Positions 11,284 through 38,089 of a stretch of 64,000 nt of DNA are shown here, piece by piece; position 1 is the first letter of the stretch, and every line of letters starts with the position of its first letter. The DNA is from Actinomycetospora soli (GTDB lineage Bacteria; Actinomycetota; Actinomycetes; Mycobacteriales; Pseudonocardiaceae), in NCBI RefSeq assembly GCF_021026295.1, contig NZ_JAJNDA010000001.1, positions 1-64,000 of the forward strand, given 5' to 3'. A program made the position numbers and the translations under genes. A model generated the notes under the pieces. The model searched no databases and was not told where the DNA came from. It saw only the letters and a program-made list of their open reading frames with translations.

Positions 11284-11360
11284 ACGATCCGTGACATTAC
11301 GCCGCGACCTACGGTTCTCCCATCGCTCGAACAGCGCAGCGATCGTCACGAGGAGAAGCC

Positions 11361-14321: not shown

Positions 14322-15239
14322 ATGAGCGACAAGGTCCCCGCGGCCATCGTCGGCCCGGGCAACATCGGCACCGACCTGCTGGCGAAGCTGGCCCGCACGT
14401 CGTCGATCGAGGTGACCGCGATGGTCGGCGTCGTCGAGTCCCCGGGGCTCGACCGCGCCCGGGCGGCGGGCATCCCGGCGTCGGCCGAGGGGGTCGACTG
14501 GCTGCTCGCGCAGGACCCGCTCCCCCGCATCGTCTTCGAGGCCACCTCGGCGCGGGCGCACGCGGCGAACGCCCCGCGCTACGAGGCGGCGGGCATCCGC
14601 GCGGTGGACCTGACGCCCGCGCACCTCGGGCCGATGGTGTGCCCGGCGGTGAACATGCCGGACCACCTCGACGCGGCGAACGTCAACATGATCACCTGCG
14701 GCGGCCAGGCGACGATCCCGGTGGTGGCCGCGGTGTCGCAGGTGGTCGACGTCCCCTACGCCGAGATCGTCGCGTCGGCGGCGTCCCGCTCGGCCGGACC
14801 CGGCACGCGGGCCAACATCGACGAGTTCACCCAGACCACCGCCCGCGCCGTCGAGGAGGTCGGGGGCGCCGCCCGGGGCAAGGCGATCATCATCCTCAAC
14901 CCCGTCGAGCCGCCGATGATCATGCGCGACACCGTCTACTGCGCGATCCCCGGCGAGGTCTACGACGACGCGACGACCACCGCGATCGCCGGCTCGATCC
15001 AGGCCATGGTGGCGCGGGTCCAGGAGTACGTGCCCGGCTACACGCTGCGCGCCGACCCGCAGTTCGACCCGCCACGACCCGAATGGGGCGGGCGGGGCCG
15101 CGTCGCGAGCTTCCTCGAGGTCCGCGGCGCGGGCGACTTCCTCCCCGAGTACGCCGGCAACCTCGACATCATGACGGCGGCCGCGACGCGCGTCGGTGAG
15201 CTGCTCGCGGCCGAGCTGGGCGCGGGGGTGGCGGCATGA
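14322..15239 (+). CDS. Acetaldehyde dehydrogenase (acylating), meta-cleavage pathway
   Basis: 305 residues. Converts acetaldehyde (or propanal) plus CoA and NAD+ to the acyl-CoA; it is the last step of the catechol meta-cleavage route and belongs to the DmpF/BphJ/HsaG family. The Rossmann motif GPGNIG is at residues 11-16 and the catalytic cysteine is C126 in MITCGGQAT; the later INEFTQT-like region appears as NIDEFTQTT. Full family length. ATG 14322 is followed by [13 protein letters not shown]. The stop overlaps the aldolase start (ATGA), matching the known channelled aldolase-dehydrogenase complex. Confidence 0.95.
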
Positions 15240-16270
15240 GCCGGCCCGGGATCCGCCACGACGTGCGGATCACTGACACCACGCTGCGCGACGGCTCCCA
15301 CGCCCAGGCCCACCAGTTCACCGAGCAGCAGGTCCGCGACACCGTGCGGGCGCTCGACCGGGCGGGCGTCGAGGTCATCGAGGTGACCCACGGCGACGGC
15401 CTCGGCGGCTCGAGCTTCAACTACGGGTTCTCCCACACCGACGAGCTGCGCCTGATCGCCGCCGCCCGCGAGGAGGCGCGGAACGCCCGGATCGCCGTGC
15501 TGCTCGTGCCCGGGATCGGCACCGTCGACGACCTGCGCCGTGCCCACGACGCGGGCGCCGAGGTGGTGCGGGTGGCCACCCACTGCACCGAGGCCGACGT
15601 CAGCCCCCAGCACTTCGGCGTGGCCCGGGACCTGGGCATGGAGACCGTCGGGTTCCTCATGATGGCCCACCGCACCTCGCCGGAGGACCTCGCGAAGCAG
15701 GCCCGGATCATGGTCGACGCCGGGTGCCAGTGCCCGTACGTCACCGACTCCGCAGGCGCCCTGCTCATGCACGAGGCCCGCGCCCGGTTCGAGGCGCTCG
15801 TGGCCGAGGTCGGCGACGAGGCCTGGGTCGGGTACCACGGGCACCAGAACCTCTCCTTCGGCGTCGCGAACTCCGTGATCGCCGCCGAGGTCGGCGTGAA
15901 GGAGATCGACGGGTCGCTCTGCGCGCTGGGCGCCGGGTCGGGCAACTCCCCCACCGAGGTCCTCGCGGCGGTGTTCGACCGGCTGGGGATCAGCACCGGG
16001 CTCGACGTCATGGCCCTGCTCGACGCCGCCGAGGACGTCGTCCGCCCGTACCTGCACCGCTGGCCCAAGATGGACCGCAACGCGATCGTCCAGGGCTGGG
16101 CCGGCGTGTACTCCAGCTTCCTGCTCCACGCCGAGCACGCGGCCGAGCGCTACAAGGTGCCCACGCACGAGATCCTCCGCCGCTGCGGCGAGCTCGGCCT
16201 CGTCGGCGGCCAGGAGGACATGATCATCGACGTGGCGCTCGAGCTGGCCCGGGCCCGCGAGGAGGGCTGA
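15236..16270 (+). CDS. 4-hydroxy-2-oxovalerate aldolase
   Basis: 344 residues, HMGL-like TIM barrel of the DmpG/BphI/HsaF family. It splits 4-hydroxy-2-oxoacids into pyruvate and an aldehyde that is channelled to the acylating dehydrogenase. Metal and catalytic residues are visible: R18 and D19 in TTLRDGSH, H22, and H201/H203 in GYHGHQN. The C-terminal DmpG communication domain is present ([19 protein letters not shown]), so the protein is complete. Its ATG overlaps the stop of the dehydrogenase, and its own stop overlaps the tautomerase start. Confidence 0.96.
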
Positions 16271-16686
16271 TGCCCGTCGTCGAGATCCACCTGGTCGAGG
16301 GCGCCCACGACGACGCCCGCCTCGAGGACCTGCTCCGGCGCGTCAGCGAGCGCTACGCGGCCGTGCTGGAGTCCCCGGTCGACCGCGTGCGGGCCTTCGT
16401 GACGATGCACGCGCCGCACCACTGGATGACCGGCGGCGTGACCGCGGCGGTCGACGGCGACCCCGCGCCGTACTTCGCGGCGGCGGTGCTCGAGGGGCGC
16501 CCGGTCGAGCAGCGGCACCGGCTGCTCGCCGAGCTGACCGACGTGCTGTGCGACGTCCTCGGCGTCACCCGGTCCCGGGTGCGCGGCCGGGTCGTCCAGG
16601 TGCCGCCCGACGACTGGGCGATCGGCGGCGTCCCCGCCGCGACCCGTCGTCGGGACGAGATCGTGGCGCGCTCCTCGCGGCTGTAG
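16270..16686 (+). CDS. Double-length tautomerase-superfamily protein
   Basis: 138 residues starting [11 protein letters not shown], giving the N-terminal proline required for tautomerase catalysis once Met is removed. It looks like two 4-oxalocrotonate-tautomerase-like halves: residues 1-57 end in HHWMTGG and residues ~68-122 end in DDWAIGG, each with a central helix (LEDLLRRVSERYAAVLE; HRLLAELTDVLCDVLG). The second half lacks an N-terminal proline of its own. It is translationally coupled to the aldolase (ATGA), so a role in 2-hydroxymuconate/2-hydroxydienoate isomerisation is likely. A separate 67-residue tautomerase is encoded at 32819. Confidence 0.78.
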   Translation: MPVVEIHLVEGAHDDARLEDLLRRVSERYAAVLESPVDRVRAFVTMHAPHHWMTGGVTAAVDGDPAPYFAAAVLEGRPVEQRHRLLAELTDVLCDVLGVTRSRVRGRVVQVPPDDWAIGGVPAATRRRDEIVARSSRL

Positions 16687-18283: not shown

Positions 18284-18441
18284 CCGAGCTCCCCCGTCGC
18301 GCCGGCCCGCCCGCCCACCGCCCGGGCCCGGCCCGCCCGCACGGTGCTGTTTCGATCCAGAGACGCGGGTCCGGGGCCGGGGTTGCGCGGCGATCGCGCA
18401 TGCCTCGACAGGTATATGCCGAGACTGGCACATTCGCCGTC

Positions 18442-19265: not shown

Positions 19266-19362
19266 GGAAATCGCTCGCGCGCGCCGCGGCCGCGTGCGTG
19301 AATGCCCGACGAGGCGCCCCGTGACCGGGGACGCCGCCGAGCACCGAGGAGAGGAGTGCCCC

Positions 19363-19434
19363 GTGTCGACCGTCGCCCGTGCGCGGGCGTGCTCCGGCGC
19401 GCCCCGATACCGCCGCGTCCGCACCCCGCGCTGA
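19363..19434 (+). CDS. Possible 23-aa leader peptide upstream of RIO kinase
   Basis: GTG 19363 opens a 23-codon frame (VSTVARARACSGAPRYRRVR then TPR) ending at TGA 19432-19434. It is preceded at good spacing by a strong GAGGAGAGGAG ribosome site, which has no other gene to serve. It ends 10 bases before a perfect hairpin that sits directly upstream of the next gene's ribosome site. That arrangement suggests a translated leader controlling the RIO kinase, with a Cys and many Arg codons. Too short to be certain. Confidence 0.4.
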   Translation: MSTVARARACSGAPRYRRVRTPR

Positions 19435-19478: not shown

Positions 19479-20390
19479 GTGCACGAACGCATGCCCCGCC
19501 GTCGTCGCCGGTTCGACGACGACCACGATGACGACCACGACGACGACCACGACGACCGCCCCACCCGCCGTCGGGCCGAGGTCGACCCCGGGACCGGGAC
19601 CGGCGGTCCGCCCACCGGCGACCGCTGGTCCACCTGGGCCGACGCGACCCACGGTCCCCGCCCCACCCCCGGCTGGCTCGTGACCGCCGCGGGCGCGGTC
19701 GACACCGAGCTCGGCGTCCTCAAGACGGGCAAGGAGGCCGACGTCCACCTCCTCGAACGCGCCGTCCCGGACGGGCCCGCCTGCCTGCTGGCGGCCAAGC
19801 GCTACCGCTCCGCGGAGCACCGGGCCTTCCACCGCGACGCCACGTACCTGGAGGGCCGCCGGGTCCGCCGGTCCCGCGAGACGCGGGCGATGGCCCACCG
19901 CACCGCCTTCGGCCGGGAGCTCCTGGCCGGGCAGTGGGCCGGCGCGGAGTTCGCCGCCCTCGGCACGCTCCACGCGGCGGGGGTGGCCGTGCCCTACCCG
20001 GTGTCACTGGACGGCACCGAGCTCATCCTGGAGTTCCTCGGCGACGCGGCGGGCAGGGCGGCGCCACGGCTGGCGGCGACCCGCCCAACGGGCGCCGAGC
20101 TGCGGGACTGGTGGCACCAGCTGACCGAGGCCCTCCTCGGGCTCGCCCGGCTGGGCTGGACGCACGGCGACCTGTCCGCCTACAACGTCCTCGTCGACGA
20201 GGGGCGGATCGTGCTGATCGACCTGCCCCAGGTCGTCGACCTGGTCGGGAACCCGCACGGGGCCGACGTCCTCGTCCGCGACGTCCGCCGCATCGGCGGG
20301 TGGTCCACCGCGCGGGACGACGGCATCGACCCCGAGGCGCTGTTCCACCGCCTGGTGGCGGAGGCGGGCCTGGCCGGCCGGGACGCCTAG
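19479..20390 (+). CDS. RIO-type protein serine kinase
   Basis: 303 residues. The N-terminal ~50 residues are a basic then Asp/His-rich low-complexity stretch (RRRRRFDDDHDDDHDDD). The RIO catalytic core then shows GKEADVHLLE (nucleotide loop), AAKRYR (Lys), and the catalytic loop THGDLSAYNVLV with IDLPQVVD as the metal-binding DFG equivalent (Asp in IDLPQ). Family members phosphorylate serine and act in ribosome maturation in archaea/eukaryotes; the bacterial role is unclear. GTG 19479 is preferred for its AGGAG at seven bases; ATG 19491 is the alternative. Its 3' end overlaps the convergent SDR gene by four bases. Confidence 0.87.
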   Translation: MHERMPRRRRRFDDDHDDDHDDDHDDRPTRRRAEVDPGTGTGGPPTGDRWSTWADATHGPRPTPGWLVTAAGAVDTELGVLKTGKEADVHLLERAVPDGPACLLAAKRYRSAEHRAFHRDATYLEGRRVRRSRETRAMAHRTAFGRELLAGQWAGAEFAALGTLHAAGVAVPYPVSLDGTELILEFLGDAAGRAAPRLAATRPTGAELRDWWHQLTEALLGLARLGWTHGDLSAYNVLVDEGRIVLIDLPQVVDLVGNPHGADVLVRDVRRIGGWSTARDDGIDPEALFHRLVAEAGLAGRDA

Positions 20391-21145
20391 AAGACACCGC
20401 GTCGGGCGCCGACGTCCAGAGCCAGCGTGGAACCGGTGAGGGCGTCGGCCTCGGGGTCGAGCAGCGTGGCGACCGCCCAGGCGACCTGGGCGGGCGTCAC
20501 GAGCGCACCGAGCGGGGACTCCGCGCGGCGCTCGTCGAGGATCACCGAGACGTCGACCCCGCGGTCGTCGGCCCGGGCCTGCGAGAGCCGCCGAAGCCGG
20601 TCGGTGTCGGCGGGTCCCGGGGCCACCAGGTGGGCGGTGACCCCGTCCGGTCCGTGGTGGTCGGCGAGCTGGCGCACCAGGTTCGCGAGCGCCGCATTCG
20701 TCACCCCGGCCGCGCAGGTGTGCGGGGACGGCTCGCTCCCGTAGTGCCCGCCGAGCGCGACCAGCCGCGAACCCGGCCGGACCCGGTGGGACACGGCGCG
20801 CACCAGCCGCAGCATGCCGCCGACCTTGAGCGCGACGGCCGCACCCAGGGCTGCCGGCTCGATCGTCGGCAACGGTCCCGCCGCCGGGAGCCCGGCGGCC
20901 TGCACCACCATCCGCACGGGGCGGTCCAGCCCGTCGACCGCGTCGCGGATCGCCGGGACGGCCGCGTCGTCGCCGATGTCCGCGCCGCACGGGACCAGGC
21001 CCGACGCCGGGTCGGGCGGCGTCCGCGCGACGGCCACGACCGTGAGCCCGGCCCGCCGGAGCCGCTCCGCGATCGCCGAGCCGAGGGCACCCGAGGCGCC
21101 GACGACGACGGCGGTGCCGGCGGTGCCGGCGTCGTCGGGGGTCAT
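20387..21145 (-). CDS. SDR-family protein lacking the usual YxxxK pair
   Basis: 252 residues with a clear Rossmann start (VVVGASGALGSAIAERLRRAG) and SDR-like ending (ALVTPAQVAWAVATLL then TGSTLALDVG). However, the NNAG equivalent reads QAAG, and the segment where Ser-Tyr-xxx-Lys is expected reads GGHYGSEPSPHTCAAGVTNA, with no Tyr-x3-Lys. It is either an atypical oxidoreductase or a cofactor-binding protein without classical catalysis. Its stop-start overlap with the HAD gene (ATGA) indicates one operon. Confidence 0.75.
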   Translation of the reverse strand: MTPDDAGTAGTAVVVGASGALGSAIAERLRRAGLTVVAVARTPPDPASGLVPCGADIGDDAAVPAIRDAVDGLDRPVRMVVQAAGLPAAGPLPTIEPAALGAAVALKVGGMLRLVRAVSHRVRPGSRLVALGGHYGSEPSPHTCAAGVTNAALANLVRQLADHHGPDGVTAHLVAPGPADTDRLRRLSQARADDRGVDVSVILDERRAESPLGALVTPAQVAWAVATLLDPEADALTGSTLALDVGARRGVF

Positions 21146-21774
21146 GCCGCGGCCCGCAGGGCGAGGAGGTCGCGGGCGCGCCCGACGGCCGCGGAGGGGT
21201 CGCGCAGGTCGACCTCGACGGTGACGAGCCCCGCGTCCCGCGCCCCCGCACAGTTGCCCGGGATGTCGTCGAGGAACACGACCTCCCCCGCGGGCAGCCC
21301 GAGGGCGTGCAGCGCCCCCGCGTAGGCCCGCGGGTCGGGCTTGAGCACCCCCGTCACCGAGCCGTCGACGATCGTGTCGAACCGGCCGAGGACCGGGTGG
21401 CGGGTGAGGTCGGCGTCGCCGTGGAAGGCGGCGAGGTCGTTGGTCAGCGCGGCGACCGCGAGCCCGGCCCGGTGGGCGTCGTCCATCAGGGCGATCACCT
21501 CGGGTCGGAAGGGCCCGTCGTCGTCATAGAGGGCGTCCATCAGCTCCGGGACGGTCCCCGTGCCGCCGCACAGCGCGCCGTACTCGGCGGCGCGGGCGGC
21601 CCAGTAGGCCCGTTCGCGGCCCCGGCCGGCGAGGACGTCGTCCCAGGCCGGGTCGGGGCGCGGACCGAGCACGCCGCGCACCTCGGTGAACTCCGGCGGC
21701 GCCGCCAGGGACGCCATGCGCTCGTGGCCCGAGGTGAGCAGGACGCCCCCGATGTCGAGCAGCAGTGCTCTCAT
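21142..21774 (-). CDS. HAD-superfamily hydrolase
   Basis: 210 residues. HAD motif I is ALLLDIGGVLL (the nucleophile Asp is kept; the second Asp of DxD is Gly as in the DxGG subclass), motif II is ALTND, motif III Lys is in GVLKPD and motif IV is VVFLDDIPGN. A cap of ~90 residues lies between motifs I and II. DxGG enzymes include haloacid dehalogenase-like and some phosphatase-like members, so phosphatase activity is not assured. It is coupled to the SDR-like gene and diverges from the split phosphotransferase genes with 143 bases between. Confidence 0.82.
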   Translation of the reverse strand: MRALLLDIGGVLLTSGHERMASLAAPPEFTEVRGVLGPRPDPAWDDVLAGRGRERAYWAARAAEYGALCGGTGTVPELMDALYDDDGPFRPEVIALMDDAHRAGLAVAALTNDLAAFHGDADLTRHPVLGRFDTIVDGSVTGVLKPDPRAYAGALHALGLPAGEVVFLDDIPGNCAGARDAGLVTVEVDLRDPSAAVGRARDLLALRAAA

Positions 21775-21917: not shown

Positions 21918-23702
21918 ATGTCCAACATCGTTCCGGTGGACGCCTACAGCACGGGCGAGTGGTACCCCGGGTACAAGCCGGAGTACTTCGACATGCCGTG
22001 GATCGTCGACCCGGCCGGCCCCTTCAAGCCCGGCGACGAGAACCAGTTCTGGTTCCTCGACTTCCACTGGTCGCGCGGCCTCACGCCGCTCGGCGCCACG
22101 CTCTGGAGCGGCGACGGCTACTGCTGGGGCACCCAGCACGCCGCCGAGAGCCTCCCCCTGCCGCCGGGTCGGGGGGTCAGCGCCCGCTTCGCCGGCACCC
22201 ACCTCTACGGCAGCGCCCTCCCCGAGACCGATCCCCGCGAGATCGAGGCCCGGGCCGGACGCATCGCCACCAACCTCCCCCACTTCCTGCAGAACTACCG
22301 CCACATCTGGGAGGGCGGCCGCGACGAGCTCGAGAACACCTGGTCCTACTTCCGCGGGGTGGACTTCACGCAGGCCCGCGGGGACGAGCTCCCCGAGCTG
22401 CTGGTCAAGGGCCGCCGTTACCACAAGCGGTCGATGGAGATCCACTTCGGCGTCATGTACCCGATGCTCGCCAACTTCCTCGGCTTCTACGGGGCGTGCG
22501 CCGACATGGGGATCGACCCCAACGAGATCGGCAAGTTCCTCCAGGGCGAGGACACCAAGATCATGGAGACCGACCGCGCGCTCTACGCGCTGGCCATGAA
22601 GGCCCGGGCGGCCGGGCTCGAGGGCGTCTTCCAGGCGCACGCCGGCTCGCAGCTGCGTGACGCGCTGGGCCGCCACGGCGGGGCCGCGTCGCAGTGGCTC
22701 ACCGAGTTCGACGACTTCCTGCAGGTCTACGGCTGGCGCGCCGAGGCGACCTGCGACGTCGGGGTCCCGGCCTGGATCGAGGACAACACGATCCCGCTGG
22801 ACCTGGTCAAGACGTTCCTGCAGCGCGGCGACGCCCACGACTTCGAGGCGGCCGCCCGCAACGCCCTCGCCGAGCGCGACGAGGCCATCGACAACGCGCG
22901 GGCCGGGCTCACCCGTGAGGAGCAGGCCGTCTTCGACGCCGGGCTCGCCTCCAACCAGGAGGCCAACTTCCCCTGGTGGCAGGACGACCACAACTACTAC
23001 ATCGACCTCAAGGTCATGCTGCCCCTGCGCTGGGGCTGCCAGGAGCTCGCGAACCGCGTCAAGGCCGAGCGGAACGACGACATGCTCTACCTCTTCTGGC
23101 CCGAGCTCATGGACGTCGCCACCGGCGAACGGCCCTACGACGCCGGGCTGCGCTCGCTGGTCGAGGACCGGCGTCAGTACTTCGACCACTGGCACGGCCG
23201 CCGCGGCGAGATGCCGAAGGTGCTCGGGACGATCCCCGAGGCGGTCGAGGACCCGATCCTCATCGAGATCTTCGGGCTGAACCCGAACTCGATCCGGGCC
23301 GTGCAGAACCCCGACGCCGCCCAGCAGACGACGATCTCCGGCGTCGCCGCGGCCAAGGGCACCGCCCGCGGCATCGCCCGCGTGCTGCAGTCCTCCGACG
23401 AGCTGCACCGCCTCGAGCCGGGGTCGGTCCTGGTGTGCGAGTCGACCTCGCCGAACTGGACGCCGGCGTTCGGCAAGATCGCGGCCGCGGTGTGCGACGG
23501 CGGCGGGATGCTCTCGCACGCCGCGATCGTCGGCCGGGAGTACGGCGTCCCCACGGTCACCGCCACCGGCGTGGCGACGCTGTCGATCAACGACGGCGAC
23601 GAGGTCGAGGTGGACGGGACCACGGGCACCGTCACGGTCCTGACGCGGGCCGCCGACGTCGCGGCACCCGCGACGCCGGCGGTGGAGGGGGCCAACGCAT
23701 GA
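21918..23702 (+). CDS. PEP-synthase-related phosphotransferase, substrate/His-domain subunit
   Basis: 594 residues (~66 kDa). Residues ~1-490 are a large domain without ATP-binding motifs; the C-terminal ~100 residues are the swivelling phosphohistidine domain of PEP-utilising enzymes, with SPNWTPAF and then GGGMLSHAAIVGREYGVPTV, where H534 is the phosphorylated histidine. The PEP/pyruvate TIM barrel of true PEP synthase is absent. Order and size match the alpha subunit of phenylphosphate synthase and the second half of rifampin phosphotransferase; the N-terminal domain would hold the acceptor. A good GGAGGAGGG site precedes ATG 21918. The stop overlaps the ATP-binding subunit's start. Confidence 0.8.
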   Translation: MSNIVPVDAYSTGEWYPGYKPEYFDMPWIVDPAGPFKPGDENQFWFLDFHWSRGLTPLGATLWSGDGYCWGTQHAAESLPLPPGRGVSARFAGTHLYGSALPETDPREIEARAGRIATNLPHFLQNYRHIWEGGRDELENTWSYFRGVDFTQARGDELPELLVKGRRYHKRSMEIHFGVMYPMLANFLGFYGACADMGIDPNEIGKFLQGEDTKIMETDRALYALAMKARAAGLEGVFQAHAGSQLRDALGRHGGAASQWLTEFDDFLQVYGWRAEATCDVGVPAWIEDNTIPLDLVKTFLQRGDAHDFEAAARNALAERDEAIDNARAGLTREEQAVFDAGLASNQEANFPWWQDDHNYYIDLKVMLPLRWGCQELANRVKAERNDDMLYLFWPELMDVATGERPYDAGLRSLVEDRRQYFDHWHGRRGEMPKVLGTIPEAVEDPILIEIFGLNPNSIRAVQNPDAAQQTTISGVAAAKGTARGIARVLQSSDELHRLEPGSVLVCESTSPNWTPAFGKIAAAVCDGGGMLSHAAIVGREYGVPTVTATGVATLSINDGDEVEVDGTTGTVTVLTRAADVAAPATPAVEGANA

Positions 23703-24874
23703 CGGTGGTGTCGGGGACGGCGGAGGTGGTGGCCATGAGCGACGCGGACGGCACGGACGGCCCGGACGGCCCGGACGGTCAGGGGACCGAGCGGCACAGC
23801 TGCGCGGCGATCGCCTGGCTCGACGAGGTCGCGCCGGCGGAGGCGATCGCCTGCGGCGGCGCGAAGATGGGTCGGCTCGCGGAGCTGCTGGCCTCGGGCG
23901 TGCAGGTGCCCCAGGGGTTCGCGGTGACCGTCGAGGCCTACCGCAGGCACTGCGCCGACTCGGGCCTCGACGGCCGGATCGACGCCGTCCTGACGGGCCT
24001 CGGGCCCGATCCGGACGACGGGGCGGTGGAGGCCGCGTCCGCGGCGATCCGTGAGCTCTTCGTGACGACCCCGGTGTCGGAGGCGCTCACCGCGCGGCTC
24101 ACCGAGGCCTACGAGGAGCTGTGCCTGCGCTGCGTCGACGTGAACGTGCCGGTGGCCGTCCGGTCGTCGGCCACCGGGGAGGACGCCGCGGACGCCTCCT
24201 TCGCCGGGATCTTCGACACCTACCTCGGGGTCTCCGGGATCGAGCGGGTCGTCGACTCGGTGCGCCGCTGCTGGGGCTCGCTGTTCACGGCCCGGGCCCT
24301 CGCCTACCGGCTGCGGCGTGGCATCAGCCACCACGAGATGCCGATCGCGGTCGGGGTGATCGAGCTCATCCACGCCCGCGCCTCCGGGGTCGCCTTCTCG
24401 GTGCACCCGGTGACCGGCAAGCGGGACCGGATCGTGATCGAGACCAGCTGGGGCTGGGGCGAGGCGATCGTGCAGGGCCTGGTCGACCCCGACCACGTCG
24501 AGGTGGGCAAGGCCGACGGCCGGTTGCTGCGCTACGACGTCGCGCACAAGAAGGTGGTGTCGGCGTTCGACTTCGCCTGCGGCGCGGTCACCGAGATCGA
24601 CATGCCCGCGAAGCTCGCGGACCGCCGGGTGCTCGACGACGAGCAGGTCGCCGCCATCGCCGCGGCGGTGACGTCGATCGAGGACCACTACGGCCATCCG
24701 GTCGACGTGGAGTGGGTGATCGGCCGCCACCGCCGCGCCGGCGACCCGGTCTGCATCGTGCAGACCCGGCCGGTGACCACCGTCGAGCCCGAGGCCACCG
24801 CGGCCCCGGCCTACGACCCGGTGGCCCTCGCCCAGAAGTACCTGTTCTCCGGGAAGCCGATCCCGGGGCGGTAG
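23699..24874 (+). CDS. PEP-synthase-related phosphotransferase, ATP-binding subunit
   Basis: 391 residues (~41 kDa). This is only the N-terminal nucleotide-binding (PPDK_N) part of PEP synthase: GGAKMGRLAELL near the start, VPVAVRSSATGEDAADASFAG, the HPVTGKRDRIVIETSWGWGEAIVQG segment and the closing DVEWVIG...VCIVQTRPVT. It should transfer the beta-phosphate of ATP to the histidine of the partner protein. The first ~30 residues are Asp/Gly-rich. Translational coupling (ATGA) with the His-domain gene and lack of any PEP-binding domain argue that the pair phosphorylates another molecule. A G/C hairpin follows at 24955. Confidence 0.85.
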   Translation: MTVVSGTAEVVAMSDADGTDGPDGPDGQGTERHSCAAIAWLDEVAPAEAIACGGAKMGRLAELLASGVQVPQGFAVTVEAYRRHCADSGLDGRIDAVLTGLGPDPDDGAVEAASAAIRELFVTTPVSEALTARLTEAYEELCLRCVDVNVPVAVRSSATGEDAADASFAGIFDTYLGVSGIERVVDSVRRCWGSLFTARALAYRLRRGISHHEMPIAVGVIELIHARASGVAFSVHPVTGKRDRIVIETSWGWGEAIVQGLVDPDHVEVGKADGRLLRYDVAHKKVVSAFDFACGAVTEIDMPAKLADRRVLDDEQVAAIAAAVTSIEDHYGHPVDVEWVIGRHRRAGDPVCIVQTRPVTTVEPEATAAPAYDPVALAQKYLFSGKPIPGR

Positions 24875-28338: not shown

Positions 28339-29688
28339 GTGCTGACCGCCGAGCAGAACGACGAACTCACCGCCGTCGAACCGGGGACCCGCATGGGCGA
28401 GGTCCTGCGCCGCTACTGGTACCCGGTGGCGTTCGCGCGGGAGATGGCGGAGTTCCCGGTCAAGCGCGTGGAGCTGCTGGGCGAGTTCTTCGCGCTGTGG
28501 CGCTCGCCGTCGGGCCGGTACGGGATCATCCCCGAGCCCTGCCCGCACCGGAAGGCGTCGATGGCCTACGGTGTCGTCGAGGGCGAGGGCCTGCGCTGCC
28601 CGTACCACGGGTGGAAGTTCGACACCGAGGGCGCGTGCGTCGACCAGCCGGCCGAGAAGGACAACACGAACTTCCAGGGTCGGGTCCGCGCGACCGCGGG
28701 CCGGGTCGAGGAGCTGGGCGGGCTGGTGTGGGCCTACGTCGGGCCCGGCCCGGCGCCGCTGCTCCCCCGCTTCGACGTCTACGTGATGGACGGGTTCCGC
28801 GACATCGGCTGGGCGGACGTCCCGTGCAACTACGTGCAGATCATGGAGAACGCGGTCGACCCGCACCACGTCGAGCACCTGCACGGCCGGTACTTCGAGT
28901 TCATCGGGGCGCACGAGGGGTTCACCGCCCCGGCGTCGTTCGGCAAGAAGCACCAGCGGATCGGGTTCGACGCCTTCGAGTACGGGATCATCAAGCGCCG
29001 CATCCTGTCCGGCGCGAGCGAGGACAACGACGACTGGAAGGTCGGCCACCCGCTCGTCTTCCCGTACAACATGCGCGTCGGCGGCGGCGGCATCCACCAG
29101 ATGCAGATCCGGGTGCCGATCAACCGCACCACGACGCGGTTCATGCTCTACACCGTCCACGCGCCCGAGGGCTACGAGCCCCTCGAGCAGCCGACGATCC
29201 CGGACTACGAGATCCCGGTGTTCGACGACCAGGGCCGCCACGTCGTCAACTACGTCGAGGGCCAGGACATCATGGCCTGGGCGACGCAGGGCCCGATCGC
29301 CGATCGCACCACCGAGCACCTGGGCCGCTCGGACATCGGGGTGTCGATGCTGCGCAAGATGTTCAAGCAGCAGATGGCGGCCGTGGAGAACGGCGAGGAC
29401 CCGCTCGGCACGGTCCGCGAGCCGCACGAGCGCATCGACCTGCCGTGCGAGAAGGACAAGTTCCACGCCGGCGGGGCGCAGTTCGCGCTCGACTTCTGCG
29501 ACATGGGCTCCACCCGCTTCTCCCCGGTGCTCGACACCATCCGCAAGGTCCACCTCTCGGCCGCCGAGCAGGTGGGCAAGGACAAGGCCGCCGGGCGCGA
29601 GTCGTTCACGCCCGTGGGCGGCATCGGCACCGCGACGCTCGAGCCGGGCACCGACGCGCAGGTCGACTCCGGCCTCGTCCCGCGATGA
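28339..29688 (+). CDS. Rieske non-haem iron oxygenase, oxygenase component
   Basis: 449 residues from GTG 28339 with TGGAGG before it. The Rieske 2Fe-2S site is C68-x-H70 and C87-x2-H90 (CPHRKAS...RCPYHGW). The mononuclear iron site is N171-x2-D174-x2-H177-x4-H182. Length and the single-subunit layout fit the phthalate dioxygenase/vanillate demethylase (PDO) group rather than the alpha-beta dioxygenases. It would hydroxylate or demethylate an aromatic acid or ether using electrons from a separate reductase, which is not encoded here. The stop overlaps the next small zinc-ribbon gene. It may feed the ring-cleavage cluster at 32-39 kb. Confidence 0.92.
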   Translation: MLTAEQNDELTAVEPGTRMGEVLRRYWYPVAFAREMAEFPVKRVELLGEFFALWRSPSGRYGIIPEPCPHRKASMAYGVVEGEGLRCPYHGWKFDTEGACVDQPAEKDNTNFQGRVRATAGRVEELGGLVWAYVGPGPAPLLPRFDVYVMDGFRDIGWADVPCNYVQIMENAVDPHHVEHLHGRYFEFIGAHEGFTAPASFGKKHQRIGFDAFEYGIIKRRILSGASEDNDDWKVGHPLVFPYNMRVGGGGIHQMQIRVPINRTTTRFMLYTVHAPEGYEPLEQPTIPDYEIPVFDDQGRHVVNYVEGQDIMAWATQGPIADRTTEHLGRSDIGVSMLRKMFKQQMAAVENGEDPLGTVREPHERIDLPCEKDKFHAGGAQFALDFCDMGSTRFSPVLDTIRKVHLSAAEQVGKDKAAGRESFTPVGGIGTATLEPGTDAQVDSGLVPR

Positions 29689-29900
29689 CCGTCCCCGACC
29701 GCCGGTTCACCGCCGACGCCGAGGCCCACCGCCGCGACCAGCCCCGGTACTGCCCCGCGTGCGCGGCGGCCCTCGACCTCGCCAGCGAGTTCTGGGAGGG
29801 CGACGAGCGCCGCTTCTACTGCTGGTGCGCGGGCTGCGGCTGGACGGGGGAGGTCACGACGACGGGTGCGACCGCGCGGGGGCACGAACCCGAGCACTGA
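29685..29900 (+). CDS. Small zinc-ribbon protein coupled to Rieske oxygenase
   Basis: 71 residues. Contains two CxxC pairs, YCPACAAALDL and YCWCAGCGWTGEV (C-A-G-C and C-W-C), so a zinc ribbon or rubredoxin-like metal site is likely. ATG 29685 overlaps the Rieske oxygenase stop (ATGA), so the two proteins are made together. It could be an assembly or electron-transfer helper; I know of no named family and treat that as a guess. The sequence between and after the Cys pairs is charged. Confidence 0.65.
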   Translation: MTVPDRRFTADAEAHRRDQPRYCPACAAALDLASEFWEGDERRFYCWCAGCGWTGEVTTTGATARGHEPEH

Positions 29901-32438: not shown

Positions 32439-32819
32439 TCACTCCCCCTGCGCGTGCGCCCGCAGGCGCTCCGCCCAGGACAGCACCGGCGGCGGTTCGC
32501 CCACCTCGGCGAACCACGCCCCGTCCCGCTCGACCACGGGGTACACCCCGAGCCGGTGCTGGTCGGTGGTGCGGCACTGCCCGGTGTCGAGGTCGAACCG
32601 GTACCAGTGCCACGGGCAGCGGACCTCGCCGTCGCGGACCCGGCCCTCGACCATCGGCCCGCCCCGGTGCGGGCAGCCGGCGTCGGTCACCCGCACCGAC
32701 CCCCGGTCGGCGTGCTCCGCCGCATCGTCGGGAGCCAGGAAGACCGCGAACTCCCGGCCGTCCGGGCTCGCGACCGTCCAGGCGGTGCGCCCGGCCGGGT
32801 CGCCCAGCGCGAGGAGCAC
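32439..32819 (-). CDS. Rieske-type ferredoxin
   Basis: 126 residues from GTG 32819. A small Rieske 2Fe-2S protein: C-P-H-R-G-G-P-M in the first cluster half and C-P-W-H-W-Y-R-F in the second, about 18 residues later. No oxygenase domain, so it acts as an electron carrier. The GTG overlaps the tautomerase stop codon (TAGTG). Its position between the tautomerase and P450 genes suggests supply of electrons to an oxygenase of this pathway (the Rieske oxygenase at 28339 or the P450). Confidence 0.87.
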   Translation of the reverse strand: MLLALGDPAGRTAWTVASPDGREFAVFLAPDDAAEHADRGSVRVTDAGCPHRGGPMVEGRVRDGEVRCPWHWYRFDLDTGQCRTTDQHRLGVYPVVERDGAWFAEVGEPPPVLSWAERLRAHAQGE

Positions 32820-33022
32820 TACCGCTTCCCGGACGCCCGGAGCTCGGCCAGCGACTCGCCGCCGACGAACCAGTGCTCGGGCTCGCACTCGGTGACCACG
32901 ACGCGGACGTTGCCCGCGGGCGCGCCGACGGCCTCCGACACCGCCGCGGTGACCTTCTCCCCCAGCGCGGCGAGCTGCTCGGGGGTCCGCCCGCGGGCGA
33001 GGGTGATCTGGACGAGGGGCAC
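32819..33022 (-). CDS. 4-oxalocrotonate tautomerase (DmpI/XylH type)
   Basis: 67 residues from GTG 33022; after removal of the initiator the N-terminus is PLVQITLARGRT, supplying the catalytic Pro-1. The rest (EQLAALGEKVTAAVSEAVG...VRVVVTECEPEHWFVGG) fits the small hexameric tautomerase, with the arginine of NVRVVV in the expected position and the Trp of HWFVGG near the end. It converts 2-hydroxymuconate to 4-oxalocrotonate in meta-cleavage. It lies between the hydratase-family genes and the Rieske ferredoxin. Confidence 0.9.
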   Translation of the reverse strand: MPLVQITLARGRTPEQLAALGEKVTAAVSEAVGAPAGNVRVVVTECEPEHWFVGGESLAELRASGKR

Positions 33023-33030
33023 GGTTCCTC

Positions 33031-33789
33031 CTAGACGACGGCCATCTCGACGGTGCCGAGCCGGTCGATCGACACGGTCACCACGTCGCCGGGGGCGACC
33101 GGGGTCGCCGCGGTGAGCCCCCCGGAGAGGACGACCTCCCCGGCGCGCAGCCCCTCCCCCGACAGTGCGAGCCGGCGCACCAGCCACGCGACGGCCGCGG
33201 CCGGGTGCCCGAGCGACGCGGCACCCGACGCCGTCGCGACCAGCTCGCCGTTGCGCTCCAGCACCACGCCCACCAGGCGCACGTCGATCCCGGCGGGCGG
33301 CACCGGCGTGCCCACCACGTAGCGGGCGGCGGACGTGTTGTCGGCGACGACGTCGGCCATGGTGAAGCGGTAGTCGCGGAACCGGGAGTCGAGCACCTCG
33401 ATGCCGACCGCGAGCCCGGAGGTCGCCGAGAGCACGTCCACGGCGGTGCAGTGCGCGCCGTGCAGGTCGCGGCCCAGGACGAACACGATCTCCGGTTCGG
33501 CCCGCGGCTGGATCAGCTCGCCCGCCGCCAGCGGCTCGCCGAGGTCGAGCGCCGCGGCGGCCGGGAGGAAGCCGCAGACCGGGGCCGACACCCCGACCTG
33601 CGCCTGCTTCGCCCGCGAGGTCACGCCGAGCTTCCACCCGGCCAGCGGACCGGCCTGCTCGCGCAGCACACGCTGCACGGCGTACCCCGTCTCCAGGTCG
33701 AGGTCGGGGTGCTCGTCGGTCAGCGGCTCGATCGCCGTGCGGTCCGCGACGGCCTTCGACAGCCGCGCCGCGAGTTCCTCGTGGTTCAC
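33031..33789 (-). CDS. 2-oxopent-4-enoate hydratase / 4-oxalocrotonate decarboxylase family protein
   Basis: 252 residues from GTG 33789, overlapping the stop of its upstream paralogue (GTGA). FAH-fold/DmpE-DmpH family: GWKLGVTSRAKQAQVG, then PRAEPEIVFVLGRDL with the metal Glu pair, LAVGIEVLDSRFRDYRF, and the C-terminal LSGGLTAATPVAPGDVV. The family includes both the hydratase and the decarboxylase of the meta pathway, which cannot be told apart by eye. Two paralogues side by side suggests one of each. Confidence 0.88.
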   Translation of the reverse strand: MNHEELAARLSKAVADRTAIEPLTDEHPDLDLETGYAVQRVLREQAGPLAGWKLGVTSRAKQAQVGVSAPVCGFLPAAAALDLGEPLAAGELIQPRAEPEIVFVLGRDLHGAHCTAVDVLSATSGLAVGIEVLDSRFRDYRFTMADVVADNTSAARYVVGTPVPPAGIDVRLVGVVLERNGELVATASGAASLGHPAAAVAWLVRRLALSGEGLRAGEVVLSGGLTAATPVAPGDVVTVSIDRLGTVEMAVV

Positions 33790-34610
33790 GCCGGTCCTCC
33801 CTGGGTCGAGCCCCGCTCCGCTGCGTCTCCCGCCACCCTGATGCTGATCGGACCCAGCCGGTCGAACTCCGCCCGGTACACCTCGCCCGCGGCCAGGGGG
33901 ACCGCCGCGTGCAGCGCACCGGTCATGATCAGGTGCCCGGGCTCCAGCGCCACGCCGTGCTCGCCGAGCACGTTCGCGAGCCACGCCACCACCGCGAGCG
34001 GGTCGCCCAGCGCCGCGGCCCCGGCGCCGGTGTCGAGCAGCTCGCCGTTGCGCGTCAACGTCATGCCGACGAGCCGGGTGTCGAGCCCCTCGAGCGGCAC
34101 CAGCCGGGAGGACACGGCGACCGCGCCGTTGGAGGCGAGGTCGGCCACGGTGTCGGCGAGCTTGATGCGCCAGTCGGCGATGCGGGAGTCGACGATCTCC
34201 ATCGCCGCCGCCGCGCCGGCGACCGCCCGGGCCGCGTCCGTCGGGCCGACGCCGGGCCCCGCCAGCCGCTCCCCCATCACGAAGACGATCTCGGCCTCGA
34301 CCTTGGGCGCGATGAAGTCGGCGAGCGAGAGCACGTCACCGTCGCGGTAGACCGTCGAGGCCAGCACGGGGCCGTGGTCGGGCGTGTCCACCCCGACCAT
34401 CCGCTGCATCGCCGTGGAGGTCAGCCCGACCTTGTACCCGACGACCCGGTCGCCGTCGGCGAGCAGCAGCGGCACGAGCTCGCGCTGGATCGCGTAGCCG
34501 TCGGCCATCCCCAGCGTCGGGTCGTCGTCGGTGAAGGGCGGGATCGGGGTCCGCGTGCGCCGCGCGTCGTAGAGCGCGCGGGCCTTGGCCTCCGGGTCAG
34601 ACACGGGCAT
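33786..34610 (-). CDS. 2-oxopent-4-enoate hydratase / 4-oxalocrotonate decarboxylase family protein (paralogue)
   Basis: 274 residues, ATG 34610. Same family as the next gene: GYKVGLTSTAMQRMVGVDTP, then PKVEAEIVFVMGERL with the metal-binding Glu residues, AMEIVDSRIADWRIKL and MTGALHAAVPLAAGEV. The SDPEAKARALYDARRTRTPI N-terminus resembles MhpD/DmpE-type hydratases, which I slightly favour as its role: adding water to 2-hydroxypenta-2,4-dienoate to give 4-hydroxy-2-oxovalerate, the substrate of the aldolase at 15236. It overlaps the IclR stop by 14 bases. Confidence 0.88.
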   Translation of the reverse strand: MPVSDPEAKARALYDARRTRTPIPPFTDDDPTLGMADGYAIQRELVPLLLADGDRVVGYKVGLTSTAMQRMVGVDTPDHGPVLASTVYRDGDVLSLADFIAPKVEAEIVFVMGERLAGPGVGPTDAARAVAGAAAAMEIVDSRIADWRIKLADTVADLASNGAVAVSSRLVPLEGLDTRLVGMTLTRNGELLDTGAGAAALGDPLAVVAWLANVLGEHGVALEPGHLIMTGALHAAVPLAAGEVYRAEFDRLGPISIRVAGDAAERGSTQGGPA

Positions 34611-35400
34611 GCAGGGTCTCCTCGATCCTTCCCGACGACAGGTTCTCCGGGCTCCAGCCGAGCCGGCGGGAGACGGCCTCCCCGGCCTCGACCACGCACC
34701 GGACCAGGTGCTCCCGCGGGAGGGCCCGGAACCGCAGCGCCGGCGCCCCCACGCTGATCGCGGCGACGACGTCCCCGCCCGGCCCGTGCACGGGGGCGGC
34801 GAGCGAGGCGACGCCGATCTCGCGCTCGTCGATCGCGTCGGCCCAACCGCGCCGGCGGACGGCGGCGAGCTCGGCGCGGACGGCGTCGGGGGCGACGATC
34901 GTGTGCGGGGTCAGGGCGGGGAAGCCGCGGGCGATGATCGCCTCCTGGCGCTCGGCGGACATCGCCGCGAGCAGCACCTTCCCCGAGCTCGTGCAGTGCA
35001 GCGGGACGCGGCGCCCGGTCTCGTGGAACAGCCGCAGCGAGTGCGTGCTCTCCAGGCGGTCGACGTAGACCACCTCGTCCCCGTCGAGCACGCCCACCTG
35101 CGAGGACTCCCCGGTCTGCTCCCGCAGCTCGACGAGTACCGGCCCCGCGGCGGCGTGCAGGTCCATGTGCGAGCGCACGACCTCGCCGAGCTCGAACATC
35201 ACGATGCCGAGGCGGTAGCCGCCGCCCTCCACGCGGGTGACGAGACCCTCCGCGGCCAGGGTGGCGAGCAGCCGGTGCACGGCGGACTTGCCGAGGCCGA
35301 GCCGCCGCGACAGCTCGGAGACCCCGAGCGTCTCCTCGCGGGACAGGAACGCCTTGAGCAGGCGCGCGGCGTTGGTGACCGACTGCAGCGTCGCGTCCAT
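34597..35400 (-). CDS. IclR-family transcriptional regulator
   Basis: 267 residues from ATG 35400. Winged HTH at ~5-65 (AARLLKAFL...LGVSELSRRLGLGKSAVHRLLATLAAEGLV) and an IclR effector domain (VPLHCTSSGKVLLAAM, then AAPVHGPGGDVVAAISVGAPALRF). IclR proteins commonly control aromatic catabolism with small aromatic acids as effectors. It is encoded inside the minus-strand arm, immediately after the conserved unknown gene (stop and start adjacent), so it is probably autoregulated through the palindrome at 36136. Confidence 0.92.
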   Translation of the reverse strand: MDATLQSVTNAARLLKAFLSREETLGVSELSRRLGLGKSAVHRLLATLAAEGLVTRVEGGGYRLGIVMFELGEVVRSHMDLHAAAGPVLVELREQTGESSQVGVLDGDEVVYVDRLESTHSLRLFHETGRRVPLHCTSSGKVLLAAMSAERQEAIIARGFPALTPHTIVAPDAVRAELAAVRRRGWADAIDEREIGVASLAAPVHGPGGDVVAAISVGAPALRFRALPREHLVRCVVEAGEAVSRRLGWSPENLSSGRIEETLHARV

Positions 35401-36154: not shown

Positions 36155-36221
36155 GCAGGTCTTCTCCCCGGAACGCTAGGGCGGTTAGCGTCGTGACGTC
36201 AAGCACACCCAGGAGGTGTAC

Positions 36222-37136
36222 ATGGGCATCCTTCGCCTCGCCCACGTCGACGTCCGGACCCCCGACCTCGACCTCTCGACGGCCTACTACACCGAGGTCA
36301 TGGGCCTGCAGCAGGTCATGCGCACCGAGGACGCGGTGTACCTCAAGTGCTGGGACGAGGAGGACCACCACTCCCTGCGGATGCGCTACAACCCGCGCAC
36401 CGGCCTCGACTCCTTCACCTTCCGCGTGGAGGCCGAGGACGACCTCGCCGACTTCGAGAACAAGGTCGAGGCCTACGGCTGCCCGACCTCGCGGGTCAGC
36501 CGCGGCGAGGCGGTCGGCCAGGGCGAGTCGCTGCGCTTCGAGGTCCCGAGCGGCCAGATCATGGAACTGGTCTGGGACATCGAGAAGACCGGCAACCTGC
36601 TCGGGAAGCACAACCCGGCCCCGACGCCGCCGCCCGACCTGCCCGGCATCGCGCCCCCGCGCATGGACCACATGCTGGTCAACGCCGAGGAGGTCGCCGA
36701 GGCCGCCACCTTCTTCATCGACGTGCTCGGCCTGCGGATGACCGAGCAGGTGCTCGACGGCAACGGCCACCAGCTCGGCGTCTGGCTCGCCGGGCGCACC
36801 AACTCCCCGCACGACATCGCGATCGTCAACGGTCCCAACGGCGCCCTGCACCACTGGGCCTACTGGCTCGACGACTGGGACCACATCCGCAAGGCCGCCG
36901 ACACGCTCGCCTACAACGGCGTGCAGATCGACCAGGGCCCGACGCGGCACGGCGTGACCCGCGGCAACACCATCTACTTCTTCGACCCGTTGGGGATCCG
37001 GAACGAGGTCTTCACCGGCGGCTACTGGGTCGACCCCGACACCGAGATCCTCACGTGGACCGAGGACAACTTCGGCAAGGGCCTCTTCTACTACGAGAAC
37101 GTCGTCAGCCAGCGCTTCCTGCGCATGCACACGTGA
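36222..37136 (+). CDS. Extradiol ring-cleavage dioxygenase (catechol 2,3-dioxygenase family), copy 1
   Basis: 304 residues, ATG 36222 placed by AGGAGG at 36211-36216. Two-domain VOC enzyme of the XylE class; it opens a catechol ring next to the hydroxyls using Fe(II) and O2. Metal ligands H150, H211 and E262 and second-shell H243 and Y252 sit at a constant offset of three from the known XylE residues (H153, H214, E265, H246, Y255). Motifs: PRMDHMLVNAEEV, GALHHWAYWLDDW, TRHGVTRGNTIYFFDP, RNEVFTGGYWV. The next gene is a close paralogue eight bases downstream. The first possible GTG (36216) lies inside the ribosome site. Confidence 0.95.
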   Translation: MGILRLAHVDVRTPDLDLSTAYYTEVMGLQQVMRTEDAVYLKCWDEEDHHSLRMRYNPRTGLDSFTFRVEAEDDLADFENKVEAYGCPTSRVSRGEAVGQGESLRFEVPSGQIMELVWDIEKTGNLLGKHNPAPTPPPDLPGIAPPRMDHMLVNAEEVAEAATFFIDVLGLRMTEQVLDGNGHQLGVWLAGRTNSPHDIAIVNGPNGALHHWAYWLDDWDHIRKAADTLAYNGVQIDQGPTRHGVTRGNTIYFFDPLGIRNEVFTGGYWVDPDTEILTWTEDNFGKGLFYYENVVSQRFLRMHT

Positions 37137-37144
37137 GGGGTCCG

Positions 37145-38089
37145 ATGCCGAACAACTCCACGTCCGACCGCATCCTGCGGCTGCAGCACGTCGAGATCCG
37201 CGTCCCGGACCTCGAGCTCGCCGCGGCGTACTACACCGAGGTGCTCGGGCTGATCGAGACCGCGCGCGACGAACGCGACGGCGCCGAGCGCGTCTTCCTG
37301 AAGTGCTGGGACGAGCGCGAGCACCACTCGGTGATCCTGCGCTCCGCACCCACGCACGGCCTGGACCACATGTCGTTCAAGCTGCACGCCCCGGAGGACC
37401 TCGACCACTTCACGACGAGGCTCGAGGCGGCCGGCGTGGCCGTGAAGCGGTTCGCCGCGCGGGAGCTCGGCCCCGGCTGGGGCGAGGCGATCCGCTTCGA
37501 GGCGCCGTCCGGGCACCTCGTCGAGCTGACCCACGGCACCGAGCGCATCGGGAACATGCTCCCGATGCAGAACCCGCCGCCCCGACCGCAGGACCTGGTC
37601 GGCATCGCCCCGCCGCGGCTGGACCACGTCTTCGTCATGGCCGAGGACGTCGAGGCGTTCACCGCGTTCTTCACCGAGCTGCTCGAGTTCCGCCTCACCG
37701 AGCAGATCCTCGCCAACGACGGGCACCAGCTCGCCACGTTCCTCGAGCACTCGCACACCCCGCACGACATCGCGGTGATCACCGGCCCGAACGGCGCGCT
37801 GCACCACTTCGCGTTCTGGATGGACGACTGGAACGGCATCCGCGAGGCCGCCGACACGCTCGCCTACCACGGGGTCCCGATCGACGTGGCCCCCACGCGC
37901 CACGGCGTGACCCGCGGCTACACCACCTACTTCTTCGACCCCGCCGGCAACCGCAACGAGCTGTTCACCGGCGGCTACTGGGTGGACCCGGACTTCGAGC
38001 CGATCACCTGGACCGAGGAGGAGATGGGGCGGGCGATCTTCTACTACCACCGCCAGGTCAACGAGCGCTTCTTCACGGTGCACTCCTGA
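37145..38089 (+). CDS. Extradiol ring-cleavage dioxygenase (catechol 2,3-dioxygenase family), copy 2
   Basis: 314 residues, ATG 37145. Paralogue of the preceding enzyme, with the same motif order; iron ligands H161, H221 and E272 and second-shell H253 and Y262. Differences cluster in the N-terminal domain and in the active-site lining segments (HFAFWMDDWNGIREAADTLAYHG versus HWAYWLDDWDHIRKAADTLAYNG), so a different ring substitution pattern is likely. The stop overlaps the histidine phosphatase start. Tandem intact copies point to two substrates or to formation of a mixed oligomer; both are inference. Confidence 0.95.
   Translation: MPNNSTSDRILRLQHVEIRVPDLELAAAYYTEVLGLIETARDERDGAERVFLKCWDEREHHSVILRSAPTHGLDHMSFKLHAPEDLDHFTTRLEAAGVAVKRFAARELGPGWGEAIRFEAPSGHLVELTHGTERIGNMLPMQNPPPRPQDLVGIAPPRLDHVFVMAEDVEAFTAFFTELLEFRLTEQILANDGHQLATFLEHSHTPHDIAVITGPNGALHHFAFWMDDWNGIREAADTLAYHGVPIDVAPTRHGVTRGYTTYFFDPAGNRNELFTGGYWVDPDFEPITWTEEEMGRAIFYYHRQVNERFFTVHS

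Follow-up and report, generated by a model that had tools for sequence, protein, structure and literature searches.

A 64,000-nucleotide stretch of the Actinomycetospora soli genome (contig NZ_JAJNDA010000001.1, positions 1 to 64,000; hereafter the window) carries two overlapping genes, H and I, whose products together show the architecture of a two-component small-molecule dikinase. Here we describe this pair, its relation to characterised dikinases and the genes that accompany it across actinomycetes.

A conserved, predicted two-component dikinase

21918..23702, + strand: H, subunit of a predicted two-component dikinase that combines the substrate-binding and the swivel (phosphohistidine) domain; 594 aa, 65.4 kDa, predicted catalytic His534
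23699..24874, + strand: I, ATP-grasp (PPDK_N) subunit; 391 aa, 41.3 kDa, alternative start at 23735

The H frame opens with the ATG at 21918, behind a purine-rich stretch resembling a ribosome-binding site, and its stop codon ends at 23702; I overlaps H through ATGA. A second in-frame ATG at 23735 gives a 379-aa I. Most BLAST alignments of I with its relatives start around residue 37–41, and 23735 could be the true start.

A Pfam scan of H at an E-value of 0.01 returned a single match, PF00391 (mobile phosphohistidine domain, residues 500–570), and found neither an ATP-grasp domain nor a phosphoenolpyruvate (PEP)-binding barrel; H ends 24 residues past the swivel match. Residue 534 is a His within GGGMLSHAAI. 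This His, G529 and G530 (the GGxxxH of the swivel domain) and Cys526 are invariant in 66/66 aligned sequences, namely the window H, 59 of the 120 homologues listed among 428 found, and six locus proteins. The sole Pfam domain of I is the ATP-binding PPDK_N (residues 54–366, 315 bits), and R155, E338, Q355 and R357 are identical in all 71 aligned I sequences. We take these four residues to be counterparts of the ATP-grasp catalytic residues of rifampin phosphotransferase (RPH), a correspondence assumed here rather than computed. A preliminary description of the window, made from its letters, had seen in H a C-terminal phosphohistidine domain centred on H534 with no ATP or PEP site, coupled by ATGA to a PPDK_N protein; the domain scans and alignments bear out both statements.

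I was present in all 52 named loci that carry H, and in 51 of them it directly follows H on the same strand. The exception is a Mycolicibacter locus (L082), where H (10001–11725) and I (18315–19385) lie about 6.6 kb apart on opposite strands. Gene starts in these loci come from our own codon-score caller and are approximate; the I genes of L078 and L081 were recovered by a search for open reading frames instead, and L091, which holds only a fragment of H, was excluded from the counts. Because I accompanies H so consistently, the two are not a chance pair of reading frames. Together, H–I is a real, conserved pair, predicted to be a two-component dikinase.

Relation to characterised dikinases

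The available parts of a recent study describe HpeHI, CreHI and PpsAB as two-component small-molecule dikinases (Dexter et al. 2025, PMC12167813). According to the same source, in the family mechanism, as measured for HpeHI, I presents ATP, the swivel His of H takes the β-phosphoryl group, AMP is formed and the phenol is phosphorylated. To place the window protein, residues 1–470 of H were compared by hhalign with three reference sets. Against six HpeH/CreH/PpsA-type sequences the probability was 99.9 (E = 2e-33, columns 37–466). Against RPH-like chains, represented by two sequences, residues 242–442 of H aligned with residues 516–714 at a probability of 96.1 (E = 3.4e-9), so that the N-terminal domain is closer to HpeH/CreH/PpsA (420 columns) than to RPH (192 columns). 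Against the single PEP synthase sequence used, that of the same genome, the probability was 0.1 (E = 0.51). A match to this PEP synthase was detectable in our set-up, because the swivel domain of H alone, used as a positive control, scored 98.7. In a phmmer search, residues 253–575 of H aligned with residues 575–878 of PDB 5hv2, which we take to be an RPH entry, and of a near-identical group; 5HV1 and 5FBS are named as RPH structures in the available text of PMC12167813.

The preliminary description had proposed this profile comparison and had named a PEP-binding barrel in the N-terminal domain as the observation that would speak against a phenol- or alcohol-phosphorylating enzyme; no such barrel is apparent. 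By profile similarity, the N-terminal domain of H is homologous to that of HpeH/CreH/PpsA and to the drug-binding domain of RPH, unlike that of PEP synthase. H itself was rejected as a PEP synthase, with no C-terminal barrel in Pfam and no N-terminal match by hhalign.

We next compared the pair with one representative of each characterised system, none of them the assayed protein: for PpsAB, a copy beside ppc genes in Azoarcus KH32C (L094); for CreHI, a cre-like cluster of Rhodococcus oxybenzonivorans (L093); and for HpeHI, an hpe-like cluster of Rhodococcus JS3073 (L092), named from its reading frames. The cre-like cluster consists of genes for a P450, I, H, an SDR protein, a ferredoxin, a reductase, an HD protein and an aldehyde dehydrogenase, which we presume to map onto the cre gene letters. 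Over H the three representatives are 43–47% identical to one another, and 46% is given for HpeH versus CreH in the available text of PMC9618137. The window H is 27% identical to the CreH-like protein, 26% to PpsA and 26% to the HpeH-like protein; the corresponding values for I are 37%, 37% and 32%.

For the swivel motif T/SxxGGxxxH, Dexter et al. (2025, PMC12167813, available parts) report conservation among the homologues in their comparison. At its −8 position, all 66 H sequences carry Cys526 in place of the expected Thr or Ser, and we therefore do not claim membership of the Pps/Cre/Hpe group; our claim is a separate clade with the same architecture. Two trees agree with this placement: the window H falls in its own clade with proteins from Pseudonocardia, Amycolatopsis, Haloechinothrix, Nocardioides, Nanopelagicales and mycobacteria, apart from the Pps/Cre/Hpe group. 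The fork joining this clade with a 41% clade has support of 82/92 in one tree and 100/100 in the other. Several long end branches were flagged by the tool, and the second H of L053 (494 aa in the gene call) was excluded by a length filter from the tree with 100/100 support.

HpeHI, the hydroxyphenylethanone kinase of Rhodococcus rhodochrous GD02, shares with the window pair the division into a substrate-plus-swivel subunit and an ATP-grasp subunit, a homologous N-terminal domain and the His in GGxxxH. It differs in the motif, where the window H has Ser rather than Cys before the His, Leu at −2 and Cys at −8, and in its surroundings, as a carboxylase and an acyl-CoA synthetase are absent among the window genes scanned. 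With 26% identity, a separate clade, and neither a biotin-dependent carboxylase nor a NagD-type phosphatase among those genes, the pair was rejected as HpeHI.

CreHI, the 4-methylbenzyl phosphate synthase of Corynebacterium glutamicum, has the same two-component architecture and a Ser before the His, and kinases of the CreH group sit in Rieske/catechol 2,3-dioxygenase/phosphatase clusters elsewhere (G443, L067) and one gene from a Rieske gene in L051. The Cre pathway uses CreJEF, CreG, CreC and CreD (PMC8796525, available parts), a gene set unlike the genes of the window; no mention of cre genes was found in PMC13101518. A P450 gene does lie in the window (31175–32362), conserved in near relatives only. 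At 27% identity, in a separate clade and with no cre-like set of the L093 type found in the window, the pair was rejected as CreHI.

Phenylphosphate synthase, PpsAB of Thauera and Aromatoleum, was the model chosen in the preliminary description. The organisation holds as far as subunit sizes and domain split are concerned, and PpsAB too has Ser before the His. The identification with PpsAB itself does not hold: identity is 26% for H and 37% for I, the clade is separate, and no phenylphosphate carboxylase is among the window genes scanned. PpsAB adjoins phenylphosphate carboxylase genes and serves anaerobic phenol use, whereas the window has oxygenases and meta-cleavage genes. RPH, finally, contains the same three domains as H and I in a single chain and acts on an antibiotic. 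The window pair, with its ATP-grasp and swivel/substrate domains on separate chains, was rejected as RPH; at another place in the genome (L096) there is a gene for a single-chain protein with RPH-like architecture.

Judged by these comparisons, H–I is a separate clade with the architecture of two-component small-molecule dikinases that matches no characterised member. Open-licence literature, covered at the level of titles and the start of abstracts, yielded no description of this H clade or of a Rieske/aryl-phosphate pathway, which is weak evidence of absence.

The nearest named relatives of H are from Actinomycetospora (94% identity). H was found in 18/18 genomes of the genus and in 43 of 346 family genomes at E 1e-160, and is rare in the order, with 3 of 298 sampled genomes at E 1e-120; all three counts include the genome of the window. 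Carriers of window-type H include several mycobacteria and Pseudonocardia dioxanivorans CB1190, which we understand to be a 1,4-dioxane degrader.

Genes that accompany H–I

Aromatic-catabolic genes, a phosphatase and IclR regulators lie within about 15 kb of H–I in the window:

14322..15239, + strand: acylating acetaldehyde dehydrogenase (TIGR03215, 417 bits, cut-off 282)
15236..16270, + strand: 4-hydroxy-2-oxovalerate aldolase (TIGR03217, 492 bits, cut-off 286)
16270..16686, + strand: tautomerase
20387..21145, − strand: SDR dehydrogenase, conserved neighbour, overlapping the HAD gene by 4 bases
21142..21774, − strand: HAD-family protein, conserved neighbour, divergent from H; motif I DxGG, without the usual second Asp
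28339..29688, + strand: Rieske oxygenase, phthalate-dioxygenase-like; [2Fe-2S] and Fe-ligand motifs intact
29685..29900, + strand: 71-aa CxxC protein overlapping the Rieske gene; no Pfam match over the scanned 29697–29897
32819..33022, − strand: 4-oxalocrotonate tautomerase-like
33031..33789, − strand: 2-oxo-3-hexenedioate decarboxylase-like (DmpH type), below the NCBIfam cut-off
33786..34610, − strand: 2-oxopent-4-enoate hydratase-like (DmpE type), below the NCBIfam cut-off
34597..35400, − strand: IclR-type regulator
36216..37136, + strand: catechol 2,3-dioxygenase a (TIGR03211, 357 bits, cut-off 320)
37145..38089, + strand: catechol 2,3-dioxygenase b (TIGR03211, 366 bits, cut-off 320)
38089..39108, + strand: histidine phosphatase (His_Phos_1), adjoining the dioxygenase pair; RHG motif intact
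39105..39914, + strand: IclR-type regulator

Family scans thus confirm that meta-cleavage genes stand on both sides of the pair, as the preliminary description had it, and the aromatic reading, under which that description had called an aryl-phosphate intermediate conceivable, is greatly strengthened by conservation across loci and family genomes. Of the 52 named loci, 37 have a Rieske gene, 30 have a gene for a HAD protein or a histidine phosphatase, 36 have an IclR gene and 36 have one or more meta-cleavage genes; for the 36 loci outside Actinomycetospora, the counts are 22, 21, 25 and 21, respectively. The named loci reach at most 10 kb per side, and absences within them are not real absences.

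Across the 346 family genomes, taken as the same set in the H, Rieske, catechol 2,3-dioxygenase and phosphatase searches by their equal number and by the handles listed, which are mostly those of genomes with a match, H and the Rieske protein were each found in 43 genomes and both in 41, and the catechol 2,3-dioxygenase pair in 40, of which 39 also have H. The best Rieske match lies on the H contig in 39/41 genomes (median distance 6.4 kb), and in the remaining two (G577 and G586) a second Rieske match adjoins H. Catechol 2,3-dioxygenase shares the contig with H in 37/39 genomes (median 14.8 kb); the other two, G014 and G586, are assemblies of about 640 and 130 contigs. The histidine phosphatase occurs in exactly the 40 genomes that have the dioxygenase pair; in all 40, phosphatase and pair share a contig and are 1.9–2.1 kb apart. 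A phosphatase so fixed to ring-cleavage genes hints independently at a phosphorylated intermediate. The genomes are not independent samples: L064 and L065 have identical Rieske rows, G454 and G470 have identical H, Rieske, dioxygenase and phosphatase scores, and several family genomes are of the same species as named loci, so the data sets overlap. Hypergeometric figures for the co-occurrence take no account of kinship, and our argument makes no use of them.

One family genome, G443, has the Rieske, catechol 2,3-dioxygenase and phosphatase genes without window-type H. Its genes form a same-strand run: two catechol 2,3-dioxygenases, histidine phosphatase, I, H, Rieske, CxxC protein, HAD, flavin reductase, hydratase, acetaldehyde dehydrogenase and aldolase. 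In the tree, the H of this run and the second copies of L067 and L051 fall with the CreH-like protein (98/98); a different dikinase clade therefore fills the same place. L067 has a CreH-type H beside its Rieske gene, and after its window-type pair come a MetE-like gene, both catechol 2,3-dioxygenases and the phosphatase. A distant Rieske relative (47–48%) occurs without H in G446.

A diiron monooxygenase replaces the Rieske oxygenase in four of six mycobacterial loci (L083, L085, L087 and L088) and in G475, with catechol 2,3-dioxygenase, IclR, H, I, hydratase and decarboxylase genes nearby; the mycobacterial meta-cleavage run around H–I also holds an aldehyde dehydrogenase gene. Proteins of L083 and L085 were assigned by Pfam and the others by BLAST; of the remaining loci, L084 is cut short and L082 differs.

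The best solved-structure matches of the window Rieske protein are 7fjl (E = 3e-46), 7fhr and 9ina, and its motifs for the Fe and cluster ligands are intact. We take 7fjl to be a phthalate dioxygenase, and 7fhr is labelled a phthalate-type dioxygenase. The third, 9ina, is an isophthalate dioxygenase, and in PDO_KF1 Arg207 and Arg244 bind phthalate (both PMC12445078, available parts). Neither Arg is matched in the window protein, where Ala197 stands opposite Arg207 (compared by eye, in a loosely aligned stretch); phthalate itself is thus disfavoured as the substrate. In L113/L114 the reductase beside H–I matches phthalate dioxygenase reductase (E = 1.4e-55), ranking behind the reductase domains of two P450 fusions (4e-83 and 1e-79).

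Several further observations concern these genes and their relatives. The 71-aa CxxC protein is kept with the Rieske gene from Actinomycetospora to G443. The window also holds a gene for a MetE-like (cobalamin-independent methionine-synthase-like) protein at 44461–45606, and such a gene recurs with the pair in 6 of the 52 loci (L067, L070, L071, L079, L089 and L090). At 42132–43927, downstream of a TetR gene, a beta-keto acid cleavage enzyme gene is followed by a 3-hydroxyacyl-CoA dehydrogenase-family gene, a pairing that presumably could belong to a carnitine-type pathway. An H paralogue of 38–41% identity (L098 5290–9974, L099, L100 5951–10629) forms runs with inositol monophosphatase-family and MetE-like genes, of which one MetE-like gene was confirmed by Pfam and the other by eye; no ATP-grasp partner was found within 500 bp. 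Other Actinomycetospora genomes (L103 9676–15286, also L105) have, about 15 kb upstream of the H of window type, another dikinase pair whose H is 27% identical; next to it stand a gene with a BMC shell domain and two genes for ring-opening dioxygenases of the LigB type, and a histidine phosphatase is close by. This locus resembles the published ARO microcompartment locus, and no mention of a kinase or dikinase was found in the available parts of the paper describing the latter.

Proposed pathway and alternatives

The conserved residues, the profile match of the N-terminal domain and the shared neighbourhoods allow us to propose a role for H–I. The pair is likely an ATP-dependent aryl dikinase that feeds aerobic catechol meta-cleavage, with a phosphatase and an oxygenase in the same pathway, and it probably acts on a phenolic compound. 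I would bind ATP; His534 on the swivel of H would take the β-phosphoryl group, with AMP and inorganic phosphate leaving, and the swivel would deliver the phosphoryl to the hydroxyl of a small molecule held in the RPH/HpeH-like N-terminal domain. The most likely substrate would be a phenolic compound entering catechol meta-cleavage. An oxygenase, either the phthalate-dioxygenase-like Rieske protein (Pseudonocardiales) or the diiron monooxygenase (mycobacteria), would make the catechol, the clustered phosphatase would remove the phosphate, and the breakdown would be completed by catechol 2,3-dioxygenase and the lower pathway. Gene structure, family, homology of the domains, conservation of the catalytic residues and clustering are seen directly in the sequences, and from there we infer the kinase activity, the phenolic substrate and the order of oxygenation and dephosphorylation. 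The proposal of the preliminary description, that the pair uses ATP to phosphorylate a phenol or alcohol, gains support from the N-terminal match and the conserved neighbourhoods.

A number of observations weigh against this proposal. Besides the low identity to every characterised H and the Cys at −8 of the swivel motif, the oxygenase partner of H–I varies between Rieske and diiron enzymes. The Rieske protein of the window belongs to group 1, which carries the CxxC protein and in G443 and L067 accompanies kinases of the CreH group. In 16 named loci (12 from Pseudonocardia, plus L070, L071, L075 and L077), window-type H has a group 2 Rieske gene as its neighbour, mostly in divergent orientation; a phosphatase gene lies between the two in L070 and L075, and two genes do so in L077. 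In the window genome the group 2 gene is on another contig (L112), away from recognised kinases, and the partner of H–I may therefore be either Rieske protein or neither. A search of the window's contig found no reductase of the phthalate-dioxygenase type; the genome has four candidates on other contigs, some in long frames that may be P450 fusions. The HAD gene is weakened as the pathway phosphatase: motif I reads DxGG, not DxD, in 28 of 34 HAD genes including that of the window (in the other six the pattern did not find the motif, their called starts being too far in), so this neighbour of H may not be a phosphatase, and the histidine phosphatase is the better candidate. PF07976, PF02332 and HpaB hydroxylases are encoded elsewhere in the window genome; catechol could therefore arise without a phosphorylated intermediate, and the notion that the cluster must supply the sole phenol hydroxylase is ruled out. 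One genome, G575 (L109), has H–I without recognised aromatic genes in 20 kb.

Within the proposed pathway, we tentatively consider that the aryl phosphate might itself be the substrate of the Rieske oxygenase, giving a phosphorylation-primed aerobic route from phenol to catechol. H–I would convert a phenol into an aryl phosphate dianion, which the Rieske enzyme would recognise as phthalate dioxygenases do dicarboxylates; the ring would be oxygenated beside or at the phosphate-bearing carbon, the histidine phosphatase would free the catechol, and the tandem catechol 2,3-dioxygenases would open the ring. The role of ATP would thereby be to provide the ring with a charged handle, or with a leaving group, for its oxygenation. 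An aryl phosphate would be attractive as a Rieske substrate because phthalate-type oxygenases act on dianionic rings. No such role for phosphorylation was found in the open-licence literature at the level of titles and the start of abstracts, and the available parts of Dexter et al. (2025, PMC12167813) call it unclear why such pathways start by phosphorylation.

The strongest alternative, which we regard as somewhat doubtful, keeps the same kinase activity and changes the order of steps: the kinase would only trap or detoxify phenols as phosphate esters, the phosphatase would release them and an ordinary hydroxylase would make the catechol. The suggestion that phosphorylation may keep phenols inside the cell (Dexter et al. 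2025, PMC12167813, available parts) agrees with trapping, as do the PF07976, PF02332 and HpaB proteins of the genome. Yet in 41 of the 43 family genomes with H, the oxygenase of the cluster is a Rieske protein resembling phthalate dioxygenase. Among the 18 genomes of the genus, three of which are less than 90% complete, PF07976 occurs in 12 (11 over the cut-off), PF02332 in 16 and HpaB in 5 (4 over the cut-off), the window genome being counted in each; six thus lack PF07976, whereas all 18 have H, the Rieske protein and catechol 2,3-dioxygenase.

That H–I is a dikinase for a non-aromatic hydroxy compound, merely travelling with an aromatic island, seems unlikely. G575, the MetE-like gene found with the pair in 6/52 loci, and the 38–41% paralogue that sits with inositol monophosphatase-family and MetE-like genes and has no I nearby would suit such a role, but two distinct dikinase clades accompany the same Rieske, catechol 2,3-dioxygenase and phosphatase genes, and H–I stands inside the meta-cleavage run in four mycobacterial loci. 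Very improbable is an antibiotic- or toxin-inactivating phosphotransferase, a split relative of RPH and the alternative raised in the preliminary description: the host is an actinomycete and the substrate domain of H aligns with the RPH drug-binding domain, but that domain is nearer HpeH/CreH/PpsA, an RPH-like single chain is already encoded elsewhere in the genome, and the neighbourhoods examined, which hold aromatic catabolic genes in several actinomycete families, lend it no support.

Two-component aryl dikinases have been described as a subfamily only recently. Dikinases of this kind are thus already known, and what is new here is a branch that stands apart and belongs with another pathway: in dozens of actinomycete genomes, the H clade links a kinase of the aryl-dikinase type to oxygenases that hydroxylate aromatic rings, to a phosphatase and to meta-cleavage. 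A link to Rieske oxygenation through an aryl phosphate would be the testable surprise of H–I, and with the operon of G443, a single run, a few purified components would suffice for a direct test. Should the oxygenase act on the aryl phosphate, phenols would have a new entry route and aerobic aromatic catabolism would have a new use for phosphorylation; if the kinase is only a trapping device, the clusters would still point to a likely class of substrates for many genes that at present are called just 'PEP-utilizing enzyme'.

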